A DNA stretch of 64,000 bases from Pisaster brevispinus (taxonomy: Eukaryota; Echinodermata; Asteroidea; Forcipulatida; Asteriidae): assembly GCA_023634235.1 (NCBI GenBank), contig JAMKCF010000014.1, positions 8,712,001 to 8,776,000 on the forward strand, read 5' to 3'. Positions 21,101 to 36,126 of this stretch are shown one piece after another (the first letter of the stretch is position 1; each line of letters opens with the position of its first letter). The notes under the pieces were generated by a model. That model had not been told where the DNA came from. It worked only from the letters and a program-made list of their open reading frames with translations, and did not search any database. Made by a program: the position numbers and the translations under genes.

Positions 21101-23313
21101 ACAAAGTGTGATGGTTTCTCGAATGCTTTAGGGCCTGATGAACAGGGGTAATAATAAAACTGTAATTAGTGCTCTGAACATATTGTTGTTGGATTTATGC
21201 TCTTCAAAAAACTCTGACTATGACCAGAAGTTTCTGAAATAAAATTCACATACAAAAACAACTTCCGAGAGCTTCGCAAAAAAACAGATTAGTAACATTT
21301 CAGAATCACTTCTTGACATTGGTACATCTCTTGGCAGTTAATGTTCTCTAAATATGGCCTTATTTTCACAAAATGGAGCTTAGTCTTTATAGCTTTATTA
21401 ACATCATTGAATTGTATGCTTCAGCGTTTGTAATTTCTTAATAAATTCAGTTGATACTTTACATTAGCTTGTACCATTTTGAAACCTTGGAACCAAGCAT
21501 AAACCGAGCCAACAACTAGCCTATGGATTGGTCACCACAGGACAACAGAGCTTGCAAAACCAATGACCGATGTTCTAACAATTGTATACAACCTTTGGTA
21601 ATTTGGCGCTATATAAATCCAGTTATTATTATTATTATTAATTTAAAGTGCAAGGGTTTTAGAGCAGTTAACTGAAGCGATTCCTTTCTGGATTGTATTT
21701 TTTTAGGAAAAGGAAAAGTCAAGAGATTCTACAAGTCCAAAGTAGGTGCGATGGAGAATCCACCTACTGTTGACGAAGATGCACTGCTCAATCCAGTCAA
21801 CAGAAGGCGGCCAAATGGTGAGGTCACCCTCACCCTGGCAACCACACCAGAGGGGAATGCTCCAGGGGGTAAAGATGGTGACCTTGAAGAACCCCCTCCA
21901 CTTCCTCCTCCCAGGAAGGGGTCAAGCCCAGTCACTCCTGACGTAGTTCCTTTGAGCGATCTCACCACTGGCAAGCTCAAACCTTCAAAGGAACTCTCCC
22001 TTGAACTTGGACTCGCCTGCGAGACCCAGAAAAGAAAGCTTCACCAGACTTTTTCCAGTCCTGGCGAGGGCGACATTACTGTCAGAACCCCTGGGACACC
22101 ATGCCGAGACGAGTATTACCCTCATCAAGAGCGCCCTCTTCCGGTTCCTCCACCGGAGATCCGAGGTGACCTTCCCCTCACAGACCCCATGCCTCTCAGT
22201 CCGGTTGCTTTTACTGGCTACCCGGCGGGATTCGCTAAAAGCCCCAAGCGAGCGCAGCCTCCGGGAAAGGTCTTGAAGTTACGGGCCCAGTTTGAGCAGA
22301 AACAGAACGGCAGCGAGAAGGAGTCTCCAGAGTGTATCAATCAGTCTCTTGAGGAAATCTTCAAGCCCGTGCTGCCTGTCAGGGCCGGTGAGATGAAACC
22401 AGCGGAGGATGTACTCATCGAGGGGCTTCCCCCTCCCCTCCCGGCCAAATCCAAGACTCCGCCTAAGAACCAGCTGGCTGATATGGAGGTAGGGTGGCAT
22501 TGTCGAATGGACTTATCTTTGACCCCCCAAAAAAAGCAAAACAATTTGACTCTAAATTTGTCCATCCTTCACCTTCGTTGTCACGATTTACTGTTTATAC
22601 ACTATTACCCATGTTTATTGAGCTGAATCACTGTAGCTCACAATTGCCTGGAGAAACCTGTAAACAAGGGTTTCTTGCTATGTGAACCAGAAACATTGTG
22701 GTTAACCCCTACTCTTCCACGATAAGTGTTCTGAGTTCTTTTACGTGCACTACCAATCCTAGTACATGTGACCTACGGCTTAATGTCCCATCTGAAGATC
22801 AAAGCAATTATGGTAAAGAACCTTGCTGAAGGACACGAGTGCCTTGACCGGGACTGGAACCCACACTCTGCTGATCAGAAACACCAGCAGAGCCTGAGTC
22901 CCTTGCTCTTAACCACTCGACCACAACAGGCCACGCTGTGCAGCCAAAGGACCCAATTTTATTCATGAATGGGTAAAATAGCTTGCAGACACGCAAAAAT
23001 AACTACCGCGTAGTTTTGGCAAGAACCGGAAACCCTGGAATGAATCCACCTAAAACTTCTACTCATCAAAGTTGTTTTTTTATCTGTCTTTCTACAGGAG
23101 TATGAAATCTTACGTCGTCCATCCACCATAGTGGAGTGGCTGATGAATCTCGGTCTACCGCAGTACGGTTACCAGCTACTGAACAGCGGCTGGGACAATG
23201 TGACGTACCTGGACAGCATTACGGACAAAGACTTGATGGAGTGTCAGATTCGGGACAAGGACCACAGGCAGAGGATGCTGGAGAGTATCCAATCCATGCC
23301 ACGACTGAAATAA
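35..23313 (+). CDS. INPPL1: SHIP2-like inositol polyphosphate 5-phosphatase, 21 exons, 5' end outside window
   Basis: SHIP enzymes remove the 5-phosphate from PI(3,4,5)P3 at the plasma membrane and so damp PI3K signalling. Joined exons: 35-110, 1140-1337, 2357-2489, 6483-6577, 7759-7888, 8360-8571, 9118-9235, 10763-10859, 11574-11712, 12776-12875, 13643-13731, 14288-14369, 14898-14987, 16390-16509, 17301-17404, 18141-18228, 19128-19224, 19841-19908, 20111-20194, 21707-22488, 23098-23313. All phases agree and give 1038 residues plus stop. Order in the partial protein: PH-like region (about 92-165), catalytic domain (about 203-505) with FIGTWNMG, GTQE, NAHLTSG, GDLNYR, PSWCDR and TSDHSPV, C2 region (about 520-700), proline-rich tail (707-967), SAM (968-1038). 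SAM argues for SHIP2 rather than SHIP1. The SH2 exons would lie upstream. No NPXY motif is seen in the part present. Confidence 0.93.
1140..1337 (+). CDS. INPPL1: INPPL1-like exon 2 of window
   Basis: Encodes AVATFQELLKAEVRIPIP and then an acidic, serine-rich linker. Donor gtgaga. The acceptor after a pyrimidine tract ends at 1139 (phase 0); an in-frame alternative ends at 1118 and would add seven residues. Confidence 0.75.
1631..1657 (+). repeat. Poly-G tract in INPPL1-like intron
   Basis: A run of about 25 G broken by two A, directly inside the intron between window exons 2 and 3. Long enough to form G-quadruplexes on the coding strand. Confidence 0.8.
1739..2175 (+). repeat. Imperfect GTT/GCT triplet microsatellite, about 440 bp
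   Basis: Irregular GCTGTT units, with a near-exact tandem duplication of about 54 bp at 1780-1870. It makes leucine-rich and, in reverse, Gln/Asn/Ser-rich reading frames. It lies wholly inside an intron of the INPPL1-like gene. Confidence 0.9.
2357..2489 (+). CDS. INPPL1: INPPL1-like exon 3 of window (PH-like region)
   Basis: Acceptor caccag, donor gtgagt, phase 0 in and 1 out. It encodes a beta-strand-like stretch (VKVEGALKNTKVKLTVD) equivalent to the PH-related domain before the catalytic core of SHIP. Confidence 0.85.
3650..4730. mobile_element. 1.08-kb foldback DNA element, terminal inverted repeats about 26 bp
   Basis: The left end TAAGGCATGACATCCTTTTA and the right end TAAAAGGATGTCACGCCTTA are inverted copies. 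No transposase frame is seen inside, so it is non-autonomous. It sits in an intron of the INPPL1-like gene. Confidence 0.75.
5118..5629. mobile_element. 0.5-kb MITE with TIR containing TCAGACA and GTACTAAAG
   Basis: The left end (gttcagacacagtactaaag) is inverted at the right (ctttagtacgctgtctgaac). Internal inverted copies of taactcattcgggttta make further hairpins. Confidence 0.75.
5725..5900 (+). mobile_element. tRNA-derived SINE, GGTTCGAATCCCACC family
   Basis: B-box-like gggttcgaatcccacc followed by cgagtaatatgcctgtggg. Related copies lie at 17020-17092 (minus), 47895-48010 (plus) and 50244-50400 (plus). Confidence 0.6.
6020..6450 (+). mobile_element. tRNA-derived SINE, 'gtggtttcttt' family
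   Basis: Head ctcagtggtttctttccctt and ggttcgaattcc, body gtggattgggtttcagtccc. Relatives: 9800-10005 (minus), 52105-52275 and 59692-59895 (3' bodies, plus). Confidence 0.5.
6483..6577 (+). CDS. INPPL1: INPPL1-like exon 4 of window
   Basis: Encodes QLIKSRVNNLKLMIRF and KKKEFSFEDAK, which align with the QQLIKS...F region of vertebrate SHIP. Phase 1 in, 0 out; donor gtttgt. Confidence 0.88.
7759..7888 (+). CDS. INPPL1: INPPL1-like exon 5 of window, catalytic motif FIGTWNMG
   Basis: Contains QKRETFCQLVQYMK and then ISVFIGTWNMG, the first conserved block of the 5-phosphatase fold. Donor gtatgt, phase 1. The acceptor is the least certain of the gene: gtgag|ACA at 7758 keeps phase 0, while other nearby AGs do not. 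Confidence 0.85.
8031..8213. mobile_element. MITE, GCTCCATTAAAG family, diverged copy
   Basis: Shares ggaattacatggagataaca and cttgaatggacttttccc with the copies at 12369-12612 and 57663-57938. Confidence 0.5.
8360..8571 (+). CDS. INPPL1: INPPL1-like exon 6 of window, GTQE motif
   Basis: Encodes PHDIYVIGTQE, where the glutamate is a metal/catalytic residue of the family, and then the DKDW...LSGLNKEY helix. Acceptor ttctag, donor gtaaga. Confidence 0.92.
8625..8960 (+). mobile_element. tRNA-Leu-like SINE
   Basis: Head resembles a Leu/Ser-type tRNA (gcccgagcggtcaagcacgc, ctctggtgcttctgatcagc, gggttcaaagtcccggtctc), then the common body gcaagacacttaaccc and a tail ggtgctatgtaaataaatgg. Confidence 0.65.
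9118..9235 (+). CDS. INPPL1: INPPL1-like exon 7 of window
   Basis: Encodes LSVLVKPDHVHQISHV and TGIANTLG, matching the SHIP core. Acceptor atcag, donor gtaagt, phase 1 out. Confidence 0.92.
9497..9668 (+). mobile_element. tRNA-Asn-like SINE, copy 1
   Basis: A conserved leader (agcttgggtgtgatccttgg ... attgactaatagggagaccg) precedes a tRNA-like segment (9594-9666) with A box tagctcagttgg, anticodon-loop atgttaa (GTT) and B box ggttcaagtcc. The acceptor and anticodon stems have mismatches, so this is a repeat, not a tRNA gene. Confidence 0.7.
9800..10005 (-). mobile_element. tRNA-derived SINE, 'gtggtttcttt' family
   Basis: Reverse strand has gctcagtggtttcttcactg, then ggttcgaatcccggtcc and a body with gggttttcctg. 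In an INPPL1-like intron. Confidence 0.55.
10113..10263. mobile_element. 151-bp foldback element, TIR CCAAACCTCGGC
   Basis: Perfect 12-bp terminal inverted repeats, with further inverted copies of a GGCTCTGGCTC motif inward on both arms. Confidence 0.75.
10763..10859 (+). CDS. INPPL1: INPPL1-like exon 8 of window, NKGAV and NAHLTSG motifs
   Basis: Encodes NKGAVGVSFLFSGTSFCFI and NAHLTSG, a strongly conserved catalytic block. Acceptor cctag, donor gtgagg, phase 2 out. Confidence 0.93.
10990..11300 (-). mobile_element. tRNA-Leu-like SINE
   Basis: Reverse strand: gtggccgagcagttaagagc, caccagaatcaagctctggt, gggtttgagtcccggtcggg, then a long body. Confidence 0.65.
11574..11712 (+). CDS. INPPL1: INPPL1-like exon 9 of window, GDLNYR motif
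   Basis: Encodes FFLGDLNYRIEW; the Asp and Asn belong to the active site of the family. Acceptor tttcag, donor gtcagt, phase 0 out. Confidence 0.93.
12369..12612. mobile_element. MITE, GCTCCATTAAAG family
   Basis: Terminal inverted repeats actccattaaagaa and ttctttaatggagctttcg; internal ggaattacattgagataaca. Confidence 0.65.
12776..12875 (+). CDS. INPPL1: INPPL1-like exon 10 of window
   Basis: Encodes LFEHDQLKREKAKGKIFVDF, matching the DQL..E...KVF segment of SHIP. Acceptor ttcag, donor gtaaga. Confidence 0.9.
13643..13731 (+). CDS. INPPL1: INPPL1-like exon 11 of window
   Basis: Encodes EEDITFPPTYRYRLGD, the conserved FPPTYRY block. Acceptor cttag, donor gtgaga. Confidence 0.92.
14288..14369 (+). 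CDS. INPPL1: INPPL1-like exon 12 of window, PSWCDR motif
   Basis: Encodes EPSWCDRVIWRSYPGMHI, a substrate-binding block. Acceptor ccag, donor gtaatt. Confidence 0.93.
14898..14987 (+). CDS. INPPL1: INPPL1-like exon 13 of window, SDHSPV motif
   Basis: Encodes CSTDIVTSDHSPVFSTFDVG with the catalytic SDH, closing the phosphatase domain. Acceptor tctag, donor gtaagt. Confidence 0.93.
15340..15452 (-). mobile_element. tRNA-Leu-like SINE head
   Basis: Reverse strand gaccgagctgtcaagcgcac with gtgtttctaatcagcagag and gggttcgagtccaggtcc. Confidence 0.6.
16390..16509 (+). CDS. INPPL1: INPPL1-like exon 14 of window (start of C2 region)
   Basis: Encodes INTSMCGTFYLEFYSNCLE, matching the FFIEFYSTCLE segment of the SHIP C2 domain. 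Donor gtagcc. Its last 27 bp and donor are copied in a 95-bp tandem duplication just downstream. Confidence 0.9.
16483..16672 (+). repeat. 95-bp tandem duplication including a splice donor
   Basis: Units 16483-16577 and 16578-16672 differ at about one base. Each holds the last 27 bp of INPPL1-like window exon 14 plus its gtagcc donor and 68 bp of intron. Confidence 0.92.
17020..17092 (-). mobile_element. tRNA-like head of the GGTTCGAATCCCACC SINE family
   Basis: Reverse strand reads ggtggtctggtggttaagac, then catctgctcta, then an interrupted cgaatcccacc. Confidence 0.5.
17301..17404 (+). CDS. INPPL1: INPPL1-like exon 15 of window
   Basis: Encodes a linker within the C2 region ending PSWSVEEFPK. 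Acceptor ccacag, donor gtatgt. Confidence 0.85.
17466..17712 (-). mobile_element. tRNA-Asn-like SINE, copy 2
   Basis: Reverse strand carries the same leader (gggtgccag, attgacaaaatagggag...), gctagatagctcagttggaa and a tail caatttttctttgttcaac-like end. Confidence 0.65.
17975..18102 (-). mobile_element. tRNA-Leu-like SINE head
   Basis: Reverse strand gtggccgagcggtcaagcgc, then accggactcaatctctggtg; close to a functional-looking A box. Confidence 0.6.
18141..18228 (+). CDS. INPPL1: INPPL1-like exon 16 of window
   Basis: Encodes LSDYDYLEEQHILVAIKSS...ESYG, matching the EYLQDQHLL..KS segment of SHIP. Acceptor ttgcag, donor gtatta. Confidence 0.9.
18303..18545 (-). mobile_element. tRNA-Asn-like SINE, copy 3
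   Basis: Best-preserved copy: leader with gtaaacttgggtgtgattcc, then gggctagatagctcagttgg, ggaggtcacaggtgtaagtc, and tail caatttttctttgttcaacc on the reverse strand. Confidence 0.7.
18586..18668 (-). mobile_element. tRNA-Asn-like SINE, truncated copy 4
   Basis: Only the tRNA-like part and tail; reverse strand gtagctcagttggcagagcg, ccagcatgttaatccggagg, caggttcaagtcc. Its anticodon-arm region is the closest of the copies to tRNA-Asn(GTT). Confidence 0.65.
19128..19224 (+). CDS. INPPL1: INPPL1-like exon 17 of window
   Basis: Encodes EFAVSLRDKISS and LTHQGHKTGEIT, equivalent to the SHRGEETGNI strand of the C2 domain. Acceptor ttacag, donor gtaagt. Confidence 0.9.
19841..19908 (+). CDS. INPPL1: INPPL1-like exon 18 of window
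   Basis: Encodes GALHVKSSDESLYGGLRKTK, the end of the C2 region. Acceptor ttcag, donor gtgaga. Confidence 0.85.
20111..20194 (+). CDS. INPPL1: INPPL1-like exon 19 of window
   Basis: Encodes LVSFDEKQDSSLCQEVPEMD, an acidic linker. Acceptor aacag, donor gtgagt; the phases fit both neighbours. Confidence 0.8.
20496..20687. mobile_element. MITE, CAATTTCATAGAGCTGCTTAAGC family, copy 1
   Basis: Inverted ends (aatttcataaagcctgtaag / cttaacagctttatgaaat). A near-identical partial direct copy precedes it at about 20318-20445. Confidence 0.65.
20690..21105 (-). mobile_element. tRNA-Leu-like SINE with long body
   Basis: Reverse strand gcgagcggtctagttcactg, gggttcgaatcccagtcatg, then a body with gcaaggcacttaaccat. 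Confidence 0.55.
21707..22488 (+). CDS. INPPL1: INPPL1-like exon 20 of window, proline-rich tail
   Basis: The 260-residue tail holds SH3-ligand-like motifs (EEPPPLPPPRKG, RPLPVPPPE, GLPPPLPAKSK). The tyrosine pair in CRDEYYPHQ is a possible phosphosite. No NPXY is present; the nearest is LLNPVN. Acceptor tttag, donor gtaggg. Confidence 0.9.
22630..22935 (-). mobile_element. tRNA-Leu-like SINE
   Basis: Same body as 10990-11300 (ttcttgctatgtgaaccaga, ccctactcttccacgataag); reverse-strand head gtggtcgagtggttaagag. Confidence 0.65.
23098..23313 (+). CDS. INPPL1: INPPL1-like last exon, SAM domain and stop
   Basis: Encodes a complete SAM domain (IVEWLMNLGLPQYGYQLL, then DSITDKDLMEC, then RQRMLESI) and TAA. 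This domain separates SHIP2-type from SHIP1-type proteins; in vertebrate SHIP2 it binds partner SAM domains such as those of Eph receptors and Arap3. Confidence 0.93.
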   Translation, partial: EYEILRRPSTIVEWLMNLGLPQYGYQLLNSGWDNVTYLDSITDKDLMECQIRDKDHRQRMLESIQSMPRLK

Positions 23314-26300
23314 AGTCCACAATAATAATGGACATTTGTATAGTGCCGGTGTCCATCAAGAAGCCATTTGTGAGTTAAATTTTAATAATGCCTGGTACAA
23401 TGACTTCTTATGTCACAAGTGACTGCTTGAATTTGAATTCCTCAGACTTTAGAGACAAGTTGTTGTGCCATATGATTTGGGGCGGGCTTTTGCCGGCAAA
23501 CACCCATACTCAACTCTGAATGAACGTGTATGGCACAATGGTGCAAGGCTTTGCCCATCTTGAGCAAGTGACCTAGCAACTGTCTCTATAGTCAGAGGAA
23601 TTCAATTTCAGCTGTAGCTTGTGCCTAAGCAAGTCATTGTACTCAGACATTGTTCAAATCTAACTCACAAATGGCCTAAAGGGACACTCATGGGGGCGTC
23701 AACGTATTATTACCCCAGTCACTTGGCCATTTATTTAATTCCTGACAAACCATTTCAGCTTCCTAGGGAGCATGCAGCCTATGGTTGCCAAGTATGTAGC
23801 GCATCAAACTAAAATCAAGCACAAGAACCATCTCTGCCTTCACAGGTACCCATTTACTGGAGAAGTAGAGTGTCTTACCTGAGGACACCAGTGTAGTAGG
23901 TGGGATTCAAACACACACACCCCAATGATTTTGCAACCAGAAAATGTATTTGGTGCACTCGACAAGGGCCCAAGTTCATAGCGCTGCGTAAGCAGTTTTT
24001 CTGTTAAAAATAAGCAGGATACCAGTCACAAATGGCTCATTTGACATGGTATTTTGGCTGGTAACCTTATTCTGGTAAGCGTGTTTTTGTTGTGCTTAGC
24101 TATGAAATTGGGCTAATATCTCAGCCACAACATGCCACATTGTCCACCTTCGTCGTTACTGTTTAGTTTTTATACCCCATCTCTGGGTCGTCCTGGTTGA
24201 ACATAACATTATTGAGAAAAGATTAACCGATAAAAAATACTCTCAATGTAAAGTGTTAACATTTCTAAAAGTGTACAACTGTTTCTCTGTAAAAGACAAT
24301 CCAAATAATCCTCAAACTTATAACTCAGAAATTCAAAAGAGTTTATTGTTTATTTAATTTTATTTCAAACTCTGCACATGATAAACATTTGCAACGAAAT
24401 GTAAACTTTTAACGAACAGGGTTGATAAACTTTTTTTTTTTTTTTACAGCACAGGGATTTTCTCCAATATGGTTCTGTCACCAACAATGCCTGCAAGGCT
24501 CTGTTGTTTGGAAGCCTGATGAAATCTGAAGACCCTTTAATCCAAGGGTGAATTGGGTCAATGGTGGAGTATTTTGAAGGATATGGAAAGATCCATAACC
24601 AACAAACTAGTGGGATTAGGGTTGTTATTGTGCAATACACAAAACTGAAAAAAAATCTCACCTGTAATGTCAATCTTAGTATCTGTCTGAAGCACATTTA
24701 AGTACAATTTAAGAGGAAAATTTAGAAATGACTGAAAGTTGCTGGCAATTTTCTGTTGAATAAAATGTTTATGATACAATTAGTACCCAGTCCCCATATA
24801 TTTTTTCTTTTTTTTACATAATTGAGCTGATCAAGTTCTTACATTTTCCTCAGAAATTGGAAGAGTTTATTGATTTACATGTATTGGCAAAAACTTAATG
24901 TTGTATCGTTGGTGTTGATGTTAAACTGTGTGTAACATTTTTGTAAAAAGTAACATTACTTACATGTAAGTTTGAACTATTTTTTTAAAGAAAACTTCCT
25001 CAAGTGTCTTCTAAACTACAAAGTATCCATCTTAACCATTTTTGTACTGCTTGTAACAATTAAAATAAGCCATTTTTTTGTACAGAGAACTTTTGTAGCC
25101 TCAAAATTAGCCATGTTGTATTAACAAAATTCAAGTAAAGTTAACAGTTTGTGTACACACGTCTAATACAAAAATAATGAAAGTTTTTTTCTGTAACAGG
25201 TTTTTAAATATTTTTCTGTAACATCTGTAACTGGTAACAGGTTTCCTGCTAATTTTTGCACAGCAGAACATTGTCAGGCAAATTGTTCTGCTTCAGCAGC
25301 TCTGTAAATCAGACCTTATGCATCGGCATCCAGCTATTAGAGGTAAACCGATGAAACAATAGAAACACACAGATTTGCACTCCTTTTGGCCTCTAGGCAA
25401 TGGTGCTCTACATGTACATGTATTTGAATGGCATCATGTGCAAGGTCTTTTGGGTCCAGATTAGTAAGCCTAACACTTTGTGCCTTTACACTCAATGAAA
25501 ATTGTGTATGGCTGTTTGTCATCCCTGTGCAAAATCTTTCTATAAAACTATTTCAGCCAACTTTTCCGTAAACCAAGGGTTTCAAAACTGAGTTTGCATG
25601 TGATCACACCACAGAAATATGTAGGACCCGGAGAATGTTGTCAGCATAGCGATCTGTGCAATTCTGCTTGTACAATATGTGACAACCCCCCGGCCGTATG
25701 TATTGAGGGCAGCATACAGACAGACCCCACAGAATATTTCCAAAGTCGCCTGCAGGTGATTTTTGGAGGTTCAACTTTTTAAAAGTTTTTGTTATCGATT
25801 TCTAACCAACAGGGCACTTGAGACGAAATAATTCCACAAGGTTGTTGCCACCATTACCATCTTCAACAAGTACATGTAGGCTTTAGGATAAAAATTACAC
25901 ATTTTCTTTTCGGGGGCTTTACTGAAGTATGACCTCACTTTTAAACAGTTGTTTGAAATTGGGCCAGAAAGATGTGGTCAACAAATGCTGGACTCTTCAT
26001 TCTGTTTAAAGTTAACAAGCAAAACGGTTTTACTACTAATTATATATCATTTGATTCTTTTTTTTCATTTTGGGATGTACCCAAACCATGCAAACCCTTG
26101 TGGAAACGACAAGGTTGGGTGAGTTCCAGTACTTGTACAATACAATGTCACTTTTAAATTTACCAACAGTTAACTGTTGTTGTAAAAATATGTACAAAAA
26201 TGACCTAACACAGTAGGACCAACAACTTTAAGAAACGTAACGTAGGTCTCGAGAATAAAATGCACAGTGTACACAGTGTACATGTATTGTTAAAAAATTT

Positions 26301-26540
26301 CGCCTTGCAGCTTCTTCATCTGAATATATCAAGAGGGCAAACATTCGTGTTTCAATGTCAAATTTCCATGTATTTGTACAGTTTATATCCTTATTTTTCT
26401 ATCTTAAAACTAAGAGTTGTTTTTAAAGAGAACAGTATTTTTGTGATACAAACAGTGTACATATATAATTCAATATTCTATGCTTCTTGTATGAAATATT
26501 TGGCCTAATAACTCCCAAAAGAAATATTGAGAAAATGTTT
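23314..26540 (+). other. 3' UTR and intergenic DNA after the INPPL1-like gene
   Basis: No coding region is supported here. It contains foldback and SINE fragments (23830-24117) and long AT-rich stretches. Candidate AATAAA signals lie at 24759-24764 (followed by T-rich sequence) and 26254-26259; which one ends the transcript cannot be told from sequence. Confidence 0.4.
23968..24117. mobile_element. MITE, CAATTTCATAGAGCTGCTTAAGC family, copy 2
   Basis: Starts gggcccaagttcatagcgct and ends tagctatgaaattgggct; internal ggataccagtcacaaatgg. Confidence 0.6.
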
Positions 26541-26542
26541 GT

Positions 26543-27150
26543 ATTAAAGAGGGGCTCCAAGGTCAAACTCAGTTTTGCGATTCAAGAAAGAGTTCTTATG
26601 AAAGTGTCTGACCTCAGGTTAAAATGGTGTAAAATGCCACCGTGCTTGAGTGCAATTTTAAAGTGCAATTTTTGTCAACATTTGAAAATGTTCAATGAAG
26701 TTGCACCCTTCAAATATAACTATCTGTACATTTTTGTACAGAGAATTTTTAGTTCATGCCTAAATATTGGTATTCAAGCAAATGGCATTAAATTTGACCT
26801 TTTGACTGGTGCAAGAGCTCCTTGAAATATACAGACCCATTTGTTTTTTTATGATGTCCGATGACGTCATGTTTCAAATTTCCCTCTGAAAGAGTATCAA
26901 ACAAATTGGCAGGGGGCAGAGACTTGTAATTACCCCCAACTTTCATGAGGAATCTATAGACTGTGCGAGTCTCGCTAGTATTCCAATGTTGGGACCAGTT
27001 TAAGTGCACAAGTTTGTTTACTTCAGGCGTTATCGCAATCTACTTGGGACCAAAGTGGTCCCGAAAATGTTTGAATACTCACGAGACTTACACAGTCTGT
27101 TTGAAAATGAGTGCATCACAAAGCCGAGTTTGACCCTAGCCTAGAACCCT
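26543..27150. mobile_element. MITE, TTAAAGAGGGGCTC family
   Basis: Left ttaaagaggggctccaaggt with ggtcaaactcagttttg; right end carries its inverse (caaagccgagtttgacc). Between the INPPL1-like and gag-like genes. Confidence 0.55.
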
Positions 27151-27171
27151 TCTATAATTATGCAGCGCTGG

Positions 27172-27384
27172 GGCCATGTCACATGAGGCAATTTACAGGC
27201 AACCAGTTCCAGGCAATCTCCAAGAAGAACAGACATTCACATTTGAATGTTCAAACATTTTTCTTGGGGATCGTAAGTCATTGTTTGGAAAATGACTCAT
27301 GTGCTACCGAAGTGGTCCAGCAGCATGCACTGCAGTTGGTTGCCTCCAAGTTGCCTGTAAAAGTTGCCCTGTGTGATAAGGCAA
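27172..27384. mobile_element. 0.2-kb MITE, TIR GGCCATGTCACA...GGCAA
   Basis: Left arm ccatgtcacatgaggcaatt and tacaggcaacc; right arm ggttgcctccaagttgcctg and gccctgtgtgataaggc: long imperfect inverted repeats. Confidence 0.65.
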
Positions 27385-27429
27385 ATTAAATACTAACTTT
27401 TTTTATCAAATAAAATAATGTGGCATTTG

Positions 27430-27620
27430 TCACATGTACATGTAGTTTTTGTTGTCTTTTTGTTTCTTAAATAAAATGGAAGTAATAGTACGTACATGTA
27501 CATCATAGTAGAGTGCACACTGTACATACATTGTAGTAACAGTAGAAACATTTCAAAACTTGGGTTTACATACATGCAACATACATGTACATACATCATA
27601 CATGTACATGTACATGGTAT
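27430..27620 (+). repeat. Clustered ACATGTACATGT repeats
   Basis: Many palindromic acatgtacat and gtacatac units, interrupted; simple-sequence DNA. Confidence 0.7.
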
Positions 27621-27671
27621 TGTTTAAATTTTTTAAGTGTTTGCTTAGACCATGTAGACATACATGACATA

Positions 27672-27810
27672 GGCCATGTCCGAATTTGCAGCTACATCTA
27701 CGACTTGATTGCTGAGTCATCATGCGGTGAAGTAAAGGACGCCCTTAGCAACAACCTTAGCGACAGTCGTAGCCGTAGTCGTAGTCGTAGCCACCGATTC
27801 GGACATAGCC
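27672..27810. mobile_element. 139-bp MITE, TIR GGCYATGTCCGAAT
   Basis: Left ggccatgtccgaatttgcag, right attcggacatagcc; the interior right arm has four cgtagt/cgtagc hexamers. Confidence 0.7.
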
Positions 27811-28087
27811 ATACTGTTAGTGTAAATGTTTACCGTTGAGCCTTTTTGTAGTGGAAAGTTGGCCTTGCATTTTAACCTTGCTACTCTACATGCTTTTGGT
27901 AACATTTTCCAGCGAGTTTATCAACCAATTGTAACTGTTCATGTATGGTGGCACAACTGTGTACTAAGGGAATAAAAGAGTGGTGACGGGGTCTTAGACG
28001 GCCATTAAAATCCAGCAGGGTCATGGCCGTGTGTTAAAGACCGAGCCCAAGGTGTTAAACACCGAGTCACTACTCTGTTACTCCTCT

Positions 28088-30247
28088 TCATGAATGCCCT
28101 TTCTGGTTGAGACGCTCCCTTATCCGTTCCTGAGCATTCTTGTTCATACCTTCTTGCGTGATAGTATTCGTAAACTTTTTCTGTCCAGCGCCACCTTGTT
28201 GAGGAAAGCGACCACGCCCTGAACCAAAATGATACCTTTCGTTGTATTCACCATGCCCACGGGAGTATGGTGAGACAGGCTCATAGGGGTAGGATCCGAC
28301 GTGCTCAGGGGGGTACGGTGGGGCACGCTCATGGGGGTACGGTGGTACATGCTCATGGGGGTAATGTGGGACACGCCCATGGGGGTATGGTGGGGCGCGC
28401 TCATGGGGGTACGGTGGGACACGCTCACGGGGATATGGTGGAAATTGACCAGGGGGAGCATAGGTCCCACCGTAGGGGTCTCTGTCATCAAATGTTGGTC
28501 GTGGGTGATCAAAACGCGAGTCCACATAAGGCTGCCGATGTTTTTTGGCGCTGGCTTTCTTCTGGCGGTTGTCGAACGGTGGCTGATGATGACGTTTAAT
28601 TGCACTGGGTTCCTCATTGCTCTTGGGGCTGTTGTCCGACAGTTTACGTTTTTTTGCGTTAGGTTTCTTATCCAGCATTTTCGTAAACTCTCCATGAAAG
28701 AGATCCTTTGTGTCCATTGGGAGTGTGAGGATTTTTTTGATGGATTCGGGCTTGTTTTGGTGTATTTGAGACATACAGATAGTTCTTCGGGATATGGTTG
28801 ACCGAGCAATGACCCTAGCCGAGGTATTGGCGATACACTCCAATGCCCCCTGAACTCCTTCAATCATGAGAAGTGCATCACTCTGTAGATCACCGGGGGA
28901 AGTCTTTAGAATGTTCTCCACTGCATTCAGCATCAAGACAGCATGTGACGATGCCTGTATCATCATCCTCGCTGACTCGTCGCATTTCTTGAAGCTGTTT
29001 TCGCAAGTGTGCAGCAGTGGATCCTGGATTGCAAAGCTTTTCTTAATGAAACTTCCTCTGTACGACTGGCGTGCTCGAATTTCATATGCAACTTGGGTGC
29101 AATAATCGTCGTCAATCGATGAGGATTGACAATATTTCCTATGGTCGGTGTTATTGGTCCAGAAACGTTTCTCGTCCTCTCTCCGTACTGGAACAATTTT
29201 CGAGGTATCTTCTGTTAAATCTTTATTCACCTCTTCCCATTGCTGTTTGACACTGTCAGCTAGTGGCAGCATGGGGACAGGGTACAAGAACTTATGTGTT
29301 CTGTGTCCTACCTGGTGATCTTTTTCCTTCAACTCTAACTCAGGATCGGACTTCTCTGGAAGAAGTTGAATTAGTTCTACCCATTTAGGATCGAAAAACT
29401 CCTCCATCACGGGTTTTTCAGGTAGGTCTGCGAGAGACTCTTGGTCGATGGTGCAGGAAGTTTCTTCCTCTTGGTCACCTTTGTCAATATCTTCAGGAAT
29501 TGGAGCATCCTCCATCTCTGAGTCTGGCTTCTCCTGCAAGTGGACATTTTCCGCTTCTGCCTCAGACTTTCCACCAACTTCTTCTGCAAACGGTTTTACA
29601 GGTAGGTCTGCGGGAGACTCTTGGTTGACGGTGTTGGATGTTCCTTCCTCTTGGCCACCCCTGTCAGTATCTTCAGGAATGGGAGTATTCTCCATCTCTG
29701 AGTCTGGCTTCTCTTGTGTGTGGACAACAACCTGGTCCCCCTGAGGCTTCCCACTGTCTTCTTCAAGAGTGTTCTCCCTGGATTTATAAGGTAGGTTCAC
29801 AGGAGACTCTTGGTTGATGGTACAAGATGCGCCTTGTTCTTGGCCATCTCTGTCAGTATCATCAGGAACTGGAGTATTCTCCATCTCTGAATCCAGCTTC
29901 TCTTGTGAGTGGACAACCTCCTCGTCCACCTGAGACTTTGTCTTGTCTTGTTCCCCTGGAACCTCCTCTTTGGGCTTGTCAGGCATGTCTGGGGTAGACT
30001 CTTGGTTGATGGTGCAGGATGTTCCTTCCTCTTGACCACCTTTGTCAGTATCTTCAGGATACGAGGCACTTATGAACTCTACCATTGTGTCAGGGACAAG
30101 CAGCTCCTCCGCGTTCCCACCAGATATGTCCTCCTCAGCCTGCGCAGGATGACTCTCCGTCTCATTCTTCTCGACTTTTTCAATGTCCTCAGACTGAGAC
30201 ACAACTATACGCCTCCGTGCTCGTGTAACTCTTTCAGTGGCAGACAT
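28088..30247 (-). CDS. Intronless 719-residue protein with DIRS Gag-like (LAP2alpha-like) core
   Basis: This is one uninterrupted ORF; the ATG has A at -3. By residue: basic start RARRR (9-13); acidic array of about 62-residue repeats (65-287) sharing GQEEGTSCTINQES and SEMENTP; conserved-looking core (about 288-527); basic KKPNAKKRKL (527-536), a likely nuclear signal; tail with 8-residue PPYPHERA-type repeats (603-663) and SGRGRF. Within the core, EGVQGAL...ARVIARSTISRR...SQ...K..LTLP...LF...MLDKK follows the GLQG..ARR..WLSQ..LL..P..F..ML pattern of DIRS retrotransposon ORF1. I infer an orphan or domesticated gag; the biological role is unknown. No reverse transcriptase, RNase H or tyrosine recombinase ORF lies beside it. 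It starts 123 bp after the MED11 stop on the same strand. An unrelated low-complexity protein remains possible. Confidence 0.75.
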   Translation of the reverse strand: MSATERVTRARRRIVVSQSEDIEKVEKNETESHPAQAEEDISGGNAEELLVPDTMVEFISASYPEDTDKGGQEEGTSCTINQESTPDMPDKPKEEVPGEQDKTKSQVDEEVVHSQEKLDSEMENTPVPDDTDRDGQEQGASCTINQESPVNLPYKSRENTLEEDSGKPQGDQVVVHTQEKPDSEMENTPIPEDTDRGGQEEGTSNTVNQESPADLPVKPFAEEVGGKSEAEAENVHLQEKPDSEMEDAPIPEDIDKGDQEEETSCTIDQESLADLPEKPVMEEFFDPKWVELIQLLPEKSDPELELKEKDHQVGHRTHKFLYPVPMLPLADSVKQQWEEVNKDLTEDTSKIVPVRREDEKRFWTNNTDHRKYCQSSSIDDDYCTQVAYEIRARQSYRGSFIKKSFAIQDPLLHTCENSFKKCDESARMMIQASSHAVLMLNAVENILKTSPGDLQSDALLMIEGVQGALECIANTSARVIARSTISRRTICMSQIHQNKPESIKKILTLPMDTKDLFHGEFTKMLDKKPNAKKRKLSDNSPKSNEEPSAIKRHHQPPFDNRQKKASAKKHRQPYVDSRFDHPRPTFDDRDPYGGTYAPPGQFPPYPRERVPPYPHERAPPYPHGRVPHYPHEHVPPYPHERAPPYPPEHVGSYPYEPVSPYSRGHGEYNERYHFGSGRGRFPQQGGAGQKKFTNTITQEGMNKNAQERIRERLNQKGHS
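28259..28441 (-). repeat. Coding 24-bp tandem repeat (PPYPHERx)
   Basis: On the plus strand it reads as repeated tcatgggggtacggtgg motifs at 24-bp spacing. It encodes about seven copies of an 8-residue P-P-Y-P-H-E-(R/H)-(A/V) unit in the protein tail. Confidence 0.85.
28667..29050 (-). mobile_element. DIRS Gag-like domain region
   Basis: Residues 400-527 of the intronless ORF. The pattern of small, aromatic and arginine residues around GVQGAL, ARSTISRRTICMSQ and LFHGEFTKMLDKK resembles DIRS ORF1 and the LAP2alpha C-terminal domain derived from it. The family resemblance is recalled, not computed. Confidence 0.5.
29387..30055 (-). repeat. Coding tandem repeat, 3.5 units of about 62 residues
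   Basis: Units cover residues 65-128, 129-191, 192-251 and a partial 252-287 of the intronless protein. Shared elements are an E/D-D-(T/I)-D start, GQEEGTSCTINQES and QEKPDSEMENTPIP. At DNA level the units are about 190 bp and diverged, so the amplification is not recent. Confidence 0.85.
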
Positions 30248-30370
30248 TTTGAATTGACAACTCCTTCTACAGCTTTCAGCAGAAATGTATGCTTCAGTTA
30301 GTGAGTATTTTAGTCAGAGTCAAACTATCGTTGCTAGCTTTCCTGTTTTGTCCATTACTGAACGTTTTTT

Positions 30371-30507
30371 TCAAGATAACTGCTGCCCTTCGCCAGCTCC
30401 ACATATTTTGCCAAGTTCATTCAGTTCACTCTTGAGATGCTCCTGACGATGAATTGCCATCTGGGCATCCTTCTGGGCTGAGTAACTGGAGCCCTCATGT
30501 GGCTGAC
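30371..30507 (-). CDS. MED11: MED11 exon 3 with stop
   Basis: Encodes QPHEGSSYSAQKDAQMA and ends GAGEGQQLS-TGA. The QPHEGSSYS motif is the MED11 signature. Acceptor ctctcag on the minus strand. Confidence 0.95.
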
Positions 30508-33500
30508 CTGAGAGCGAAAAAATCAAACAAAACTTAAAATACAATTTTGCAGTTTCCATCTGCTGAGATTTAATGTTGGTCAGTTGGTGTGTGAGCAAAC
30601 TTAAGTTTCATAGACAAATGTGACACTCTTCGCCAAAATCGGGCACTTCTCAGAAAACCTTCTGAAGTAGATGTCTTGGTAGGAAGTACCTGTTTCTATG
30701 GAGCGAAACTTTCACAGAAACAGAAAGGAAGGCCTGATAAATGTATTTTTAAAATGTCCCTGGGATGCCATCGGCAGTTATGTATATATGCCTGGACATT
30801 CCATTGGGTAGCATGTTACGCTTTAATTTCCCCTTACAAAATACTCAAAATCTCCCCTTAACTGGTTATTGTTATGTAATCAAAGGGCACTTCCATTGGA
30901 CAATTTTTGTAAGTCTATGGCGAACTTTTGAAGGAGCACCAAGGCCAAGACCAGGGGCAACAGAGGCCATGGCCTCTGTGGCTTTCATGTACGTAATTTC
31001 AGGTCTAGGGTTATATAATAATCCCTTGATGGGAAAGTGGGGTTTTGAATTTAGTTTCCAGCGCCTTTTGTCCCTGTCTGTTACGGGCCAATGAAACATG
31101 ACACCATGAGTGCATGCATGGTGCACACTACACATTGAGCTCTCGTAGCAGGTCTACACGTCAACCACTGTTGAACGAGTACCACATTGACCTACATAGA
31201 ATGTTCAGGGCGTGCAATTACATCAACCGCCGCACGCAATTTACAAAGAATCTTAATATTGCTTATCACGCATCATTGCAATAACGATAACAGATAATTG
31301 CAAACTACAGGCATCAGTGCCTGTGTCCATGACTTTACGTGCAATATCCTCGGATCAGTGCTATAAAGTATGAGATTGTTATTTGCAATTTATCTGTAAT
31401 AATGGAAAGGTTATTAAGTGAAAAAGGGTAAGTAAATCAAAATCCACAAGTAAATGTTTTTCTTGGACAGGTTGGAAACTGAATGTTTCTTTTTGACAAA
31501 CTAATTATTTGGAGACCACACTTGATCAATAAACTCCAATTACCTGGAGCTCCAAAATATACAAAACCCATTTTATGAAACCCATACAAATTGCCTTTAA
31601 AAACCTTAGTTTTACTTATGCACCTATCAATTATCATGATTGTAATCTCGGCCCAAGGGACCCGGGACTAGCTAGGACTTGGCCAGGGATATAAAATTTA
31701 CCCAGTGTGGTAGTCCCGGCTATGCCCTGCTACTGCCCCAGCGGGGGCAGGGGAATTGTTGTAATACACTGGCCCTGGCATGTGTGCAAGAATTAGTTTA
31801 CAACCTCCGCACGATCCCAGCCCAGGCATGTGGGGCATCTGTCACAACATCCGTCACAACCCTGGCCTGCATGCCTCTGCCGGTCGAGCAGGATCATTCA
31901 TTTATTAATATTTCATAAATTAATAAATAAATTAAAAACTACATCGCACTGCCCACGAAGTCTTCGAAACTGAAAGTGTGCATGCGCCAGGACTGATTCT
32001 GGATCGTGGCCATCAGAAATAATTTTTTTAAATAAACTATATCTCTCAATGAAGAAGCTTAATTCAAAGAGAATATTAACATATTTCACTATGCAGGAAT
32101 TACAAAGTTTAATTTCTTAGCAGATGCATAAATTTGGATCTTTTAGGCATTTTAATATCGACAAATTTTAGTACCAACAAATTCCCTTAAACACCACTGC
32201 GCAAAATTTTTGACTTATCCAATGGCGTAGGATTTAAGCATGAAGTAGTAATCTGCGCAATTTAAAAAATAACTGCGCAAGTTTGGAAATTGCGTCCATT
32301 CGCTTTCTTCAAGTTTTACACTTGTGCAAGCAAGTCTGTAATTTGCACAAGTTTACTTTGTGTCAAACATATTGAAGGTGCCCTTTTTTAAATGCTTGTC
32401 CCTTTTTTACATTTTTTAGGTGAAAATATGTAACTTCGATGTCCATCTTTTTCAAAATGTGAAACAGGATCTGGACACTGATTTTTCAATGGATAGAACA
32501 ATAATTGAAGGTAAAAATTTGAATGATATAATTGCACTTTTGACAGGCATGGTCAGCGAAAAATTTGTCCGGTCGGGAAAATAACATTTTTCAAAAATTA
32601 ATTAAGTCCCCGCGATTGTCCCGGTAGGCCGGGGAAACAGATTGTACAACCCTGGCAAAGTCCCCGCTATTGTCCCGGCTAGCGGGGCACGGTTTTTTGC
32701 ATATCCCCGTCTATGTTCTTGCTACCTCTTCCAAGGCCCCAGGTTCCCCCAGGGTCGGGACTACAACAATTGATAGGTGCATTTTTAGTCCTGAGCCCAC
32801 GATATACAAGTGTTTCGGCATTAAGTGGTTAAACAACACAAATTACTTACCAGTTGCAACTTGTGACAAGTAGTTGATTTGCTCTGATAGCGATTTTTCC
32901 ACCTTCTCCAAGGTCTTGAGGAACTGTCTGGTATAATGCTCCGTCAAATGTTCATTCGGTTTGTCCTCACTGAGTTCACCGACTGCACGACCTGAAAATG
33001 TTTTACAAAAGATGATCAAATTGAAGTTTTCAAAGTTAGCCTAGATTATCATCATCAGAGTGCGTAAACTCTCTGAGGTATTTATTAATTCATAATGAAT
33101 GAAAAAGTGGTGTCCGGATAATGATATTTTTCCCAGTTTTTATTTTCAATAAAAAATGACACGTATAATTGCACCACTAGTTTGCTATGCAATACTTAAC
33201 AATGAATACCTTTCCTACTCAGTCTGTTCAAGCAATTAGCATTCACTCAGTCAGTGTGCAAGAGACATCCATGATCCAGTCTAAATATTTTTCTATGCAA
33301 AATTGCAGAATCAAACAAGGAAATCATTCTCCAGCCTGCTGATGCATAGTGTAATTCTACCTCCATGGTGTAACTGAGTGTAGTAATATATGCAAACCCG
33401 AACACCATCTATCTGTTCACTCATTTCAATGAATGCTGGTCAACTCGTACGCACGCAAACTCGTACGCACCAACTCGTACACACACAAACTCGTACACGC

Positions 33501-35234
33501 ACAAACTTGTACAGACACCAAGTCGTACGCACACCATCTCGTACGCAAACTAACTCGTACACCCACCAACTCGTACGCAAGCATAATTCACTACGTGTTG
33601 ACTCAGGGAAAAGGTTTCGCCGTTTTGATGCAAAGTTATTATTATAACTTATAATATTGTGATAATTCACTACGTGTTGACTTAATAATGAATTGCGTTT
33701 TAGTTTTGTTTTTGTTTTCCCTCAAGTAATTAAACTTTGATTTGACGGATGGCATTCCCGCTAAAATCCGAAAGGTAGGGTTTATTTCAATTTGATATTT
33801 TTCTGAAATTTTGATAGTAAATAATTTTTGGAAAATAAAACAGATGTTTTGGAAAAACAAACTGATTTTTGGGGAGTTTCGTTCCTTTCTGAAATGATTG
33901 TTTAGCCCGTCAGATAAATTATGAAATTAAATAAATTGAGAAAATAAAACATATTTTGGGGGAGTTTTGTTCATTTCCGTCAGTTAAATTTTGATAGTAA
34001 ATAAATTTAGTAAATAAAACAGATTCTTTGGGAGTTTTGTTCCTTTCCGAAATGATTGTTTCTGAAATTGATTATTTCTGAAATTGATAGTAAATAACTT
34101 TTGGAAAATAAAACAGATTTTTTGTTCAACTATAGTGAAAGTTTTGGCTGGAAATTTCACAAATATTGTTGAAACAGGTAATTGCATACTCTAGACTCGT
34201 TCAGCTTTTGTAATCTCTTTTGTAAATGTGTGGCCCTGAAAAGGGACGGTGGTTTTCATGGGTCCTGAAAGGATCGTTTGGTTTGGGGCTTGAAGTTGCT
34301 CACATCGCAGGACCATGGAGGTGGCTGCACGCTGACAACAGGCTAGAGGTTTTCAGAGTCCCGGCTTGGTAGGCGTCCCATAGCTTGAAGATCCTGCCTT
34401 GGACTTGTAATCATAATTTTACGGTTTTATGTTTTACAAGTCAACTACTTGTCTTGGAGTGTCACTGAATTGGACAGCGCCACCATTTTATCAATCAAGT
34501 ATCAATCATTAATTTCGAATTCATAATTCCCGCTTTCGAATTAATAATTCCCGCCTAGTTAAGTAGCACGATATTAGTGCTTTCGTTGTTTCCAATGTAC
34601 AAGTGTCCCGTAATAAATACACCTGCGTACGAGTTTGTTTGTGTACGAGTTTGCGTGTGTACGAGTTTGTGGGTGTACGAGTTTGTGTGTGTACGAGTTG
34701 GTTGGCGCACGAGTTGACCAATTGGCGTACGGGTTTGCGTGCGTACGAGTTTGCGTGCGTACGAGTTGACCCGTTTCCGTTATTGTTACAAAAAATACAA
34801 ATTGTAAAAAAAAAACACACATTTTTGGTAAGTACAGAAGCAGAGGACACTGTAAAACTATGTTACATTTAATTTATGATTTAGAATGGCGATCCGATGG
34901 TTGTCAAACATGCAACTGCATCCCGGCTTCGATTTGGTCCGGACGGTAGGTAGTAAACGAAATAACATTATTATCAAGGTCATGTGAGCATCCATCATGG
35001 CGAACGTTCTTCACATTCATATTCATTATTTTATGACTACGATTACATTTCTTCCAAAAACACCTTTTTTACGTGGAACGAACCGCATCAAACACTTACC
35101 AGTGTTTGACAAAATTATCCCACTTTCATAACGTGTACAACGAATTTCAATTCACCTGCGTTTAAGACCACATTAGCAATGTCGTTTTCGATGATTTCGA
35201 GTTGTTTCAGACGGTTTTCTGTGGGAGAAGTCAT
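30371..35234 (-). CDS. MED11: Mediator complex subunit 11 (MED11), three exons
   Basis: MED11 is a small helical subunit of the Mediator head module. It pairs with MED22 and helps recruit TFIIH to RNA polymerase II promoters in the nucleus. Exons on the minus strand are 35156-35234, 32851-32991 and 30371-30507; phases 1 and 1 join cleanly into 118 residues plus stop, matching the family length of about 117. Diagnostic stretches are NRLKQLEIIENDIANVVLNA, GELSEDKPNEHLTEHY, INYLSQVATGQPHEGSSYS and QKDAQMA. The start is the first ATG of exon 1 (A at -3). The promoter faces SAP130. No canonical poly(A) signal occurs in the 123 bp between its stop and the next ORF; the first AATAAA downstream lies inside that ORF at 29222-29227. 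Confidence 0.95.
30508..32850 (-). other. MED11: MED11 intron 2, no gene seen
   Basis: AT-rich, with repeat fragments (30870-31130 and 31640-31910) whose GC-rich pieces such as caaggccaagaccaggggc look repetitive. No coding exon is supported. Confidence 0.6.
32851..32991 (-). CDS. MED11: MED11 exon 2
   Basis: Encodes RAVGELSEDKPNEHLTEH through SEQINYLSQVATG. Acceptor tttcag, donor gtaagt on the minus strand. Confidence 0.95.
33440..33593 (+). repeat. Tandem array of ACTCGTACGCACGCAA-type units, arm A
   Basis: About ten 13-16-bp units with CGTAC cores in MED11 intron 1. An inverted copy lies at 34623-34770. Confidence 0.85.
33775..34130 (+). repeat. Diverged tandem repeat, about 100-120 bp unit
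   Basis: Three to four copies of a unit with ttgatagtaaataa, aaaataaaacagat and gggagttttgttcctttc, between the two inverted arrays. Confidence 0.75.
34623..34770 (-). repeat. Tandem array of CGTACGAGTTTG-type units, arm B
   Basis: The inverse of arm A: gcgtgcgtacgagttgac here is the reverse complement of gtcaactcgtacgcacgc in arm A. Confidence 0.85.
35156..35234 (-). CDS. MED11: MED11 exon 1
   Basis: Begins MTSPTENRLKQLEIIENDIA. Donor GCAG|gtgaat on the minus strand, phase 1 out. Confidence 0.93.
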
Positions 35235-36126
35235 AATTCACAAAACAGCACGCTGTTTGTCTGTGTACAGTACGATCTGAACGGGCTGGCTGCCTGGCTG
35301 GCTGGCTGAGAGTTTTTTACGGGCCGGGGCAGTTGATGCGACGTGCGACTCCGAGATACAAAAACCCCACACGGTGCATGTATTACAGTCCTACAATCCA
35401 CGGCTGCTGCTAGCAGAGCGTACACACGCTACTTTTCTCTACATACACAACACAGAGAAACAATCAGTCGGGGGTCGCCATCGTCTGCAAATAGAGGATG
35501 GTTAAACTAAATATTGGAGGGTGGTAGTTTTTATTTATTTATTTGTGTGGACTATTTACAATAAATACACACTTGATGTATTGATTGGTATATAAAATAC
35601 GCTTGCCGTAATTATATATGTATTTATAGTGTACATTTAAGCATCGAAAGTAATGTCCTAAAATGTTGCTTTTACTTAACCACCCCTTTATGAAATAGTC
35701 GAAACCGCGGGAAAATTGATTGCACTCTGGAAGAGACTATTTTAAAATTGGGGGCTTATTTTTAAAGTGTGAAAATGTATCGTCATATATATTTTTATTC
35801 AGTAATGATTTGTACTCGTAGTAACAAAATAATTATTCATAGTTACTAATTTAAGTTTATAAAATGCATTTTGTAGTACTCGAGTATTTATACATAATTA
35901 CTTTAACAAGATATTCACGTAAACTGGAACTAGTTACCCTACTTAATATGTACCATTCCATAAAAATTGAACAGTAAAACCAATTGCAGAGAACGTTTCA
36001 TAAGCAGTTCGGCAGTATTAATTTGCATATGAAATAAACCAATCAGCCTTGCTGTTTCTGAGAGCTGTGGAACTGAGAAACATCGTTCAAAAAAATCGGA
36101 AGTGTAGTACGCCTTCGTGAGAAAGA
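35235..36126. promoter_or_regulatory. Shared divergent promoter region of MED11 and SAP130
   Basis: The interval between the two head-to-head genes has no supported ORF. It holds a CCAAT box (aaccaatcagc near 36038-36048) and an Ets/GABP-type CGGAAGTG (36099-36106), both close to the proposed SAP130 first exon, and a YY1-like cgccatcgtc near 35476-35485 on the MED11 side. No TATA box is placed with confidence. The middle is AT-rich. Confidence 0.5.

Follow-up and report, generated by a model that had tools for sequence, protein, structure and literature searches.

A conserved single-copy sea-star gene very probably derived from the gag of a DIRS1-type retrotransposon

A long uninterrupted reading frame in an animal genome raises the question of whether it belongs to a live mobile element or to the host and, in the latter case, from where it was acquired. 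Such an open reading frame (ORF) lies in the stretch of Pisaster brevispinus DNA analysed here (hereafter the window: 64,000 nucleotides, GCA_023634235.1, contig JAMKCF010000014.1, positions 8,712,001 to 8,776,000), where it occupies positions 28088-30247 on the minus strand (30247→28088) and comprises 719 codons from ATG to TGA in a single coding exon. Its frame is free of stops for 741 codons, reaching 30313, and its length is far beyond chance, given that across 60 simulated 64-kb windows (second-order Markov) the longest stop-to-stop run per window had a median of 170 codons and never exceeded 234. A preliminary description, prepared from the letters of the sequence, had recognized this intact intronless frame without stating its strand, and had proposed that it is a DIRS gag exapted as a host gene. 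The frame was confirmed, and the proposed exaptation is supported by homology to DIRS ORF1, by the single-copy status of the gene, by relatives in other sea stars and by the failure to find partner genes. Taken as a whole, these observations are probably best explained by a captured DIRS1 gag maintained as a single-copy gene encoding a LAP2alpha-like nuclear dimeric scaffold; of the components of this explanation, the origin of the host gene from a DIRS gag is the one we hold with great confidence.

The core of the encoded protein is, by sequence comparison, homologous to the DIRS ORF1 product beyond chance. Alignment with hhalign of the cores of four gene copies, namely the window protein and the three relatives described below, against 31 DIRS gags gave a probability of 96.9 % (E = 1.5e-10, score 77.7) over 228 columns, a clear outcome for the ORF1 profile comparison that the preliminary description had named as a check. 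The equivalent alignment with seven gags of the same genome gave a probability of 96.3 (E = 1.6e-9) over 198 columns. Among the controls, 200 column-shuffled profiles reached a maximum score of 21.6 and a reversed profile scored 14.5, while each of the four gene sequences taken singly scored 55 to 72 against the gag profile. Conversely, a tblastn search of the entire window (low-complexity filter off) with the gag of L016, a DIRS element of this genome, recovered this ORF as its sole match (E = 1e-10). Residues shared with the gags include D423 (28/28), R427 (28/28), R488 (26/27), L516 (23/24), D368 (26/28) and P328 (20/22), the denominators being those of the 31 gags with a letter at the respective column. 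The Gag-like core earlier placed at residues 400-527 thus stands as to its homology, but its extent needed revision, as it reaches from about 312 to 526. A search of proteins with the gag profile returned 24 gags from 7992 candidates scored. In a tree from which four of the 35 rows were excluded as shorter than 120 residues (P0023, P0024, P0026 and P0028), the four gene copies formed one group (100/100) on a long branch of 3.06 changes per column, apart from 27 gags, with 14 of the 28 inner branches open and the bootstrap unsettled.

The same genome contains DIRS elements with which the locus can be compared directly. Searching the 549.7-Mb assembly with the core recovered one full match, the gene itself, and 24 weak ones (E 3e-4 to 8.5), 23 of which fall within residues ~354-530; the other, L014, covers a different region, is interrupted by a stop and seems to be a chance match. 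No second DNA match to the head plus core was found in the assembly. A Pfam scan of the frames at eight of the weak loci (L003, L007, L008, L009, L010, L011, L012 and L015) detected reverse transcriptase (RT) within the matched frame or immediately after it at six, with none at L010 and L011 in the stretch examined. Wider stretches around L003, L015 and L012, designated L016, L017 and L018 respectively, contain long frames with clear RVT_1 matches, RNase H matches no better than the cut-off (best 2.1e-5), and phage-integrase-type (recombinase) matches that fall short of it (best 7.7e-5). L016 and L017, the two in which repeats were examined, conform to the textbook DIRS1 structure: their terminal inverted repeats, 147 bp and 145 bp long respectively, are 100 % complementary, and each also has further repeat pairs corresponding to the internal complementary regions of the DIRS1 architecture, as outlined in part of PMC3266345. 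The DNA of L003-L006 is 98.8-99.97 % identical to that of L002 over ~3.36 kb, with long open frames, and the five copies sit on contigs C3, C6, C7, C79 and C12. As they are near-identical and all but one sit on large contigs, this DIRS1 family has probably been mobile recently in this sea star. Separately, L012/L018 (C27:2713500-2723400), P0022 and P0027 represent a divergent DIRS gag subfamily grouped in the tree; the L012 gag shares 35-43 % identity with the remaining gags of the genome, and P0027 has a Cys-rich N-terminus.

The preliminary description would have taken many near-identical copies with intact pol as a sign that the ORF belongs to a live element. The genome does contain near-identical DIRS copies, yet the present gags are only ~26 % identical to the ORF in the matched region. 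Terminal inverted repeats, RT/RNase H and tyrosine recombinase accompanying gag, as seen in L016 and L017, were not found at the ORF. A six-frame Pfam scan of the 6 kb flanking each side revealed no RT, RNase H or recombinase, and the pol and recombinase proteins of L016-L018 gave a single match to the whole window at E 0.64 (tblastn), in agreement with the earlier view of the flanks. An inverted-repeat search of 24000-36000 likewise found no DIRS-like terminal repeats around the ORF among the 25 of 27 pairs listed. Given the homology to DIRS ORF1, the partner genes and terminal repeats not found, the single copy and the sea-star relatives, the ORF is very probably a host gene and not a member of a live DIRS element.

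Protein searches recovered two relatives, both annotated as uncharacterised, namely a 713-residue protein of Asterias amurensis (P0002) and a 469-residue protein of Patiria miniata (P0003, LOC119723754), to which a profile search (E <= 10, 4767 candidates) added only P0004, of 353 residues and headless in its model. Searches with the core and the gene profile returned sea-star relatives only, with no DIRS gags and no LAP2alpha. The window protein is 88 %, 52 % and 62 % identical to P0002, P0003 and P0004 in the core and 68 %, 38 % and 47 % in the tail; in the head, absent from P0004, the identity is 71 % to P0002 and 32 % to P0003. Gap columns against the same three number 1, 10 and 23 in the core (11 of the 23 reflecting the later start of P0004) and 127, 274 and 385 in the head plus tail. 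The N-terminal similarity to Patiria is borderline (1/2000 shuffles for P0001, 52/2000 for P0002), and that of the tail is firm (0/2000 against both P0003 and P0004). The sequences thus identify a conserved sea-star gene with relatives in other, including distantly related, sea stars. We take Asterias to be a forcipulate and Patiria a valvatid. Mitogenome dating, as given in part of PMC8933410, places forcipulate diversification at 270 Ma (million years ago; 95 % highest posterior density 208-347) and that of the sea stars as a whole at 351 Ma. If the Asterias and Patiria copies are orthologous and the taxonomy is as assumed, the gene would be at least roughly as old as the sea-star split so dated. 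No earlier report of it was found by title or abstract opening in searches of an open-access library, in which no paper contains LOC119723754.

Four parts make up the gene product, namely the acidic head, the helical core, the basic cluster and the Pro/Tyr/Gly/Arg tail (Table 1), and the acidic repeat head, basic cluster and PPYPHE/GRGRF tail listed in the preliminary description were all recovered. Not all of these need be host-specific additions as had been supposed. The DIRS gag tails are basic and contain RG in 8/8 shown, with 3 to 9 RG/GR each, and since the gags examined also end in this manner the RG-containing tail was probably inherited from gag. In the gene it retains RPxFDDRDxYGG-like motifs, and GRGR in 3/4 copies; P0002 has lost GRGR and has no RG/GR among its last 75 residues. 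The PPYPHE repeats and the tandem units of the head, on the other hand, are late additions by sequence comparison, as the former are absent from P0003 and P0004 and the latter from P0003 (the P0004 model being headless). Residues 1-274 contain 75 D+E as against 23 K+R, whereas the N-terminal parts of the longer DIRS gags are basic and Ser/Arg-rich by eye. Pairwise rates between head units were noisy (nonsynonymous, dN, 0.15-0.26; synonymous, dS, 0.12-0.93; dN > dS in one pair) and were left unused. All four gene copies share five cysteines (C373, C383, C415, C422 and C491), as well as H435, H518, W289, W337 and W363, without variation, and no gag has the same residue at any of these positions (20-29 of the 31 gags having a letter at each). 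C415 and C422, seven residues apart, fall at the beginning of the first long helix, and C491 is close to where the second one ends; going by the helix limits, these three should come close at the open end of a predicted antiparallel hairpin. The five fixed cysteines may add a metal or disulphide site.

We propose that a DIRS1-type ORF1 was captured as a host gene in a sea-star ancestor, that it lost the other genes and the terminal repeats of the element, and that it has been maintained a short way downstream of MED11 as a single-copy gene with a single coding exon. The gag core would form a long antiparallel helical hairpin and dimerise like the C-terminal domain of LAP2alpha, the basic cluster would bring the protein to the nucleus and the basic RG-containing tail may bind RNA or DNA. 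The result would be a dimeric nuclear scaffold with the acidic head as a flexible interaction surface. In the case of LAP2alpha, efficient chromatin association requires C-terminal dimerisation, according to the portion of PMC11417337 consulted. In an AlphaFold model of the core built with DIRS gags, the LAP2alpha dimerisation domain (PDB: 2v0x) was the sole PDB entry near significance in Foldseek and the top PDB match, spanning 181 residues (Foldseek, VIA).

Certain observations limit this structural link. It depends on the gags in the model: a first AlphaFold model of three gene copies was poor, so that its fold matches were not interpreted, and does not list 2v0x. The Pfam LAP2alpha family (PF11560), a comparison with which the preliminary description had named as a check, was matched neither by the protein, its core and two relatives nor, at E <= 1, by any of 35 family members. 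Further searches were equally negative. The full protein matched no Pfam family at E <= 1, hence no LEM or LEM-like domain; Pfam scans of protein, core and relatives yielded either no match or only chance ones; LAP2alpha was not retrieved from the PDB by sequence searches with the protein or with the gene, gag and joint profiles; and the fold search of BFVD had no match at E <= 0.001. The LAP2alpha family had no match in the sea-star genome either, but this is uninformative as 14 control genomes likewise gave none. A nuclear-scaffold function is offered as a tentative proposal from the combined analysis.

Several alternative interpretations need to be weighed against a captured gag acting as a nuclear scaffold. 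The ORF might not be autonomous, being instead an alternative last exon of, or a second cistron on, the MED11 transcript, comparable to LAP2alpha in TMPO. It lies on the same strand as MED11, its ATG is 123 bp past the MED11 stop, and in the intervening gap (30371-30247) ACTAAA is the sole one of 12 poly(A) hexamers sought, with no canonical hexamer; exon capture of this kind is described for TMPO and ZNF451 in the part of Abascal et al. (PMC4495291) consulted. However, the ORF starts with an ATG of its own and is preceded by an in-frame stop, a splice from MED11 exon 2 into either of the two nearest acceptor-like AGs would, by eye, break the reading frame, and the named relatives are annotated as separate proteins, P0002 beginning at the matching ATG and P0003 having a short N-terminus. 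This arrangement hence appears rather unlikely. At the other extreme, a non-autonomous or decayed DIRS copy, intact only through recent insertion, would accord with the near-identical elements of this genome, but it is already contradicted and scarcely credible: the one inverted-repeat pair straddling the ORF (25 of 27 pairs listed, 24000-36000) is of 22 nt and of the poly-T/poly-A type, no pol or recombinase remnants or close copy were found, and relatives occur in other sea stars.

The remaining alternatives concern function. The captured gag could be trans-dominant, co-assembling with present DIRS gags and poisoning them in the manner of gag-derived restriction factors such as Fv1 and Ty1 p22. 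It has retained the gag core and a present-day target exists in the near-identical DIRS1 copies with long frames (L003-L006 relative to L002) and in the 100 % complementary terminal repeats of L016/L017. But identity of ~26 % makes co-assembly doubtful, and the good conservation of the core across species is unlike that of typical arms-race genes, leaving this role unlikely. It seems slightly more improbable that the protein still forms capsid-like RNA-carrying particles, as do the products of the gag-derived Arc or PEG10. While the retained core and the RG-containing tail in three of four copies are in keeping with such particles, the predicted LAP2alpha-type helical fold differs from the retroviral capsid fold. 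Furthermore, DIRS ORF1 is without clear homology to retroviral GAG according to Abascal et al. (PMC4495291, as far as consulted).

If the gene is a captured DIRS gag, its closest counterparts are instructive in both likeness and difference. LAP2alpha, too, is derived from DIRS1 ORF1/gag and is encoded by a long single exon (PMC4495291, in part), and in both proteins a lengthy N-terminal part precedes the gag-derived core. LAP2alpha, however, uses an alternative last exon of mammalian TMPO and has a LEM domain, in contrast to the free-standing sea-star ORF with its own ATG and no known fusion, whose product has no LEM by Pfam but an acidic repeat head and five gene-specific cysteines. The LAP2alpha-domain isoform of ZNF451 represents a second, separate DIRS gag capture as a long 3' exon, but is fused to a zinc-finger gene and is eutherian only (same source, in part). 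The ORF1 products of L016, L017 and L018 are homologous over ~200-228 columns and share the basic RG-containing tail; unlike the gene, these elements have RT, RNase H, recombinase and several copies (with terminal inverted repeats in L016 and L017), and the gags inspected have N-termini that by eye look basic and Ser/Arg-rich, and lack Cys at the five positions. In the domesticated gags of long terminal repeat type (Arc, PEG10/RTL and PNMA), a gag likewise became a host gene; these derive from other retroelements and have a capsid fold.

With respect to the neighbourhood, the preliminary description had contrasted the intronless ORF with split genes around it. MED11, the neighbour examined in this regard, is divided into three or more coding exons, all on the strand of the ORF (~35234-35154, 32991-32851 and 30507-30371), their limits being read by eye from the sequence with the human protein as a guide; its Pfam Med11 match (3.7e-5, 24.6 bits) is slightly under the cut-off of 26.9. 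The lack of a canonical poly(A) hexamer in the 123-bp gap raises the question of how MED11 transcripts terminate. Intron 1 of MED11 contains a ~1.3-kb stretch (33437-34771) ending in inverted tandem arrays of the 16-bp unit AACTCGTACGCACACA, whose arms (33438-33470 and 34739-34771) are 100 % complementary and which resembles a foldback-type element. Elsewhere in the window are a SAM-domain gene at 21676-23310 on the plus strand (SAM_1, 1.5e-8), of which the long frame 21676-22623 is guessed to be a part, and two tandem copies of a 95-bp unit at 16483-16675, matching at 98 %.

Table 1. Positions in the window of the gene, the parts of its product and the adjacent MED11 exon.
Feature	Position	Strand	Basis
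Very probable domesticated DIRS-gag gene, 719-aa ORF, one coding exon	28088..30247	-	ORF reading; single copy; relatives P0002, P0003, P0004
Acidic head, four tandem ~60-residue units	29412..30059	-	Repeat detection; tandem expansion absent from Patiria relative P0003
Gag-homologous core, residues ~312-526	28670..29314	-	hhalign and tblastn with DIRS gag of same genome
Best-matched part, residues ~408-528, with K-x-D-x3-R, RR and LPxxxxxLF signatures common to DIRS gags	28664..29026	-	Genome search and alignment
Basic cluster KKPNAKKRK, residues 527-535, candidate nuclear localisation signal	28643..28669	-	Sequence; putative signal role
Tail motif RPTFDDRDPYGG, residues 583-594, retained with changes in relatives	28466..28501	-	Alignment
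24-nt tandem repeats encoding PPYPHE-type units, lineage-specific	28261..28441	-	Repeat detection; absent from P0003, P0004
GRGRF, residues 677-681, in RG-containing tail	28205..28219	-	P0004 GRGRF, P0003 GRGRG, lost in P0002
MED11 last coding exon	30371..30507	-	Sequence and same-strand Pfam Med11 match

The DIRS-gag host genes named in the portions of the literature consulted, LAP2alpha and the ZNF451 isoform, are all mammalian (PMC4495291, in part). The sea-star case would mean that DIRS gag was captured repeatedly, probably far earlier as well, and that it is able to live as a gene of its own. On a bolder view, which we regard as possible though doubtful, sea stars independently evolved their own LAP2alpha: a third capture, outside vertebrates and probably much earlier, giving a free-standing nuclear dimeric scaffold that later acquired a cysteine-based metal or redox site, a feature of none of the DIRS gags examined. 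The near-identical DIRS elements of the same genome make a restriction-factor role directly testable. The sea-star gene also provides a natural comparison with LAP2alpha, in which the contribution of the gag fold, namely dimerisation and nucleic-acid binding, may be set against the additions made by each host.
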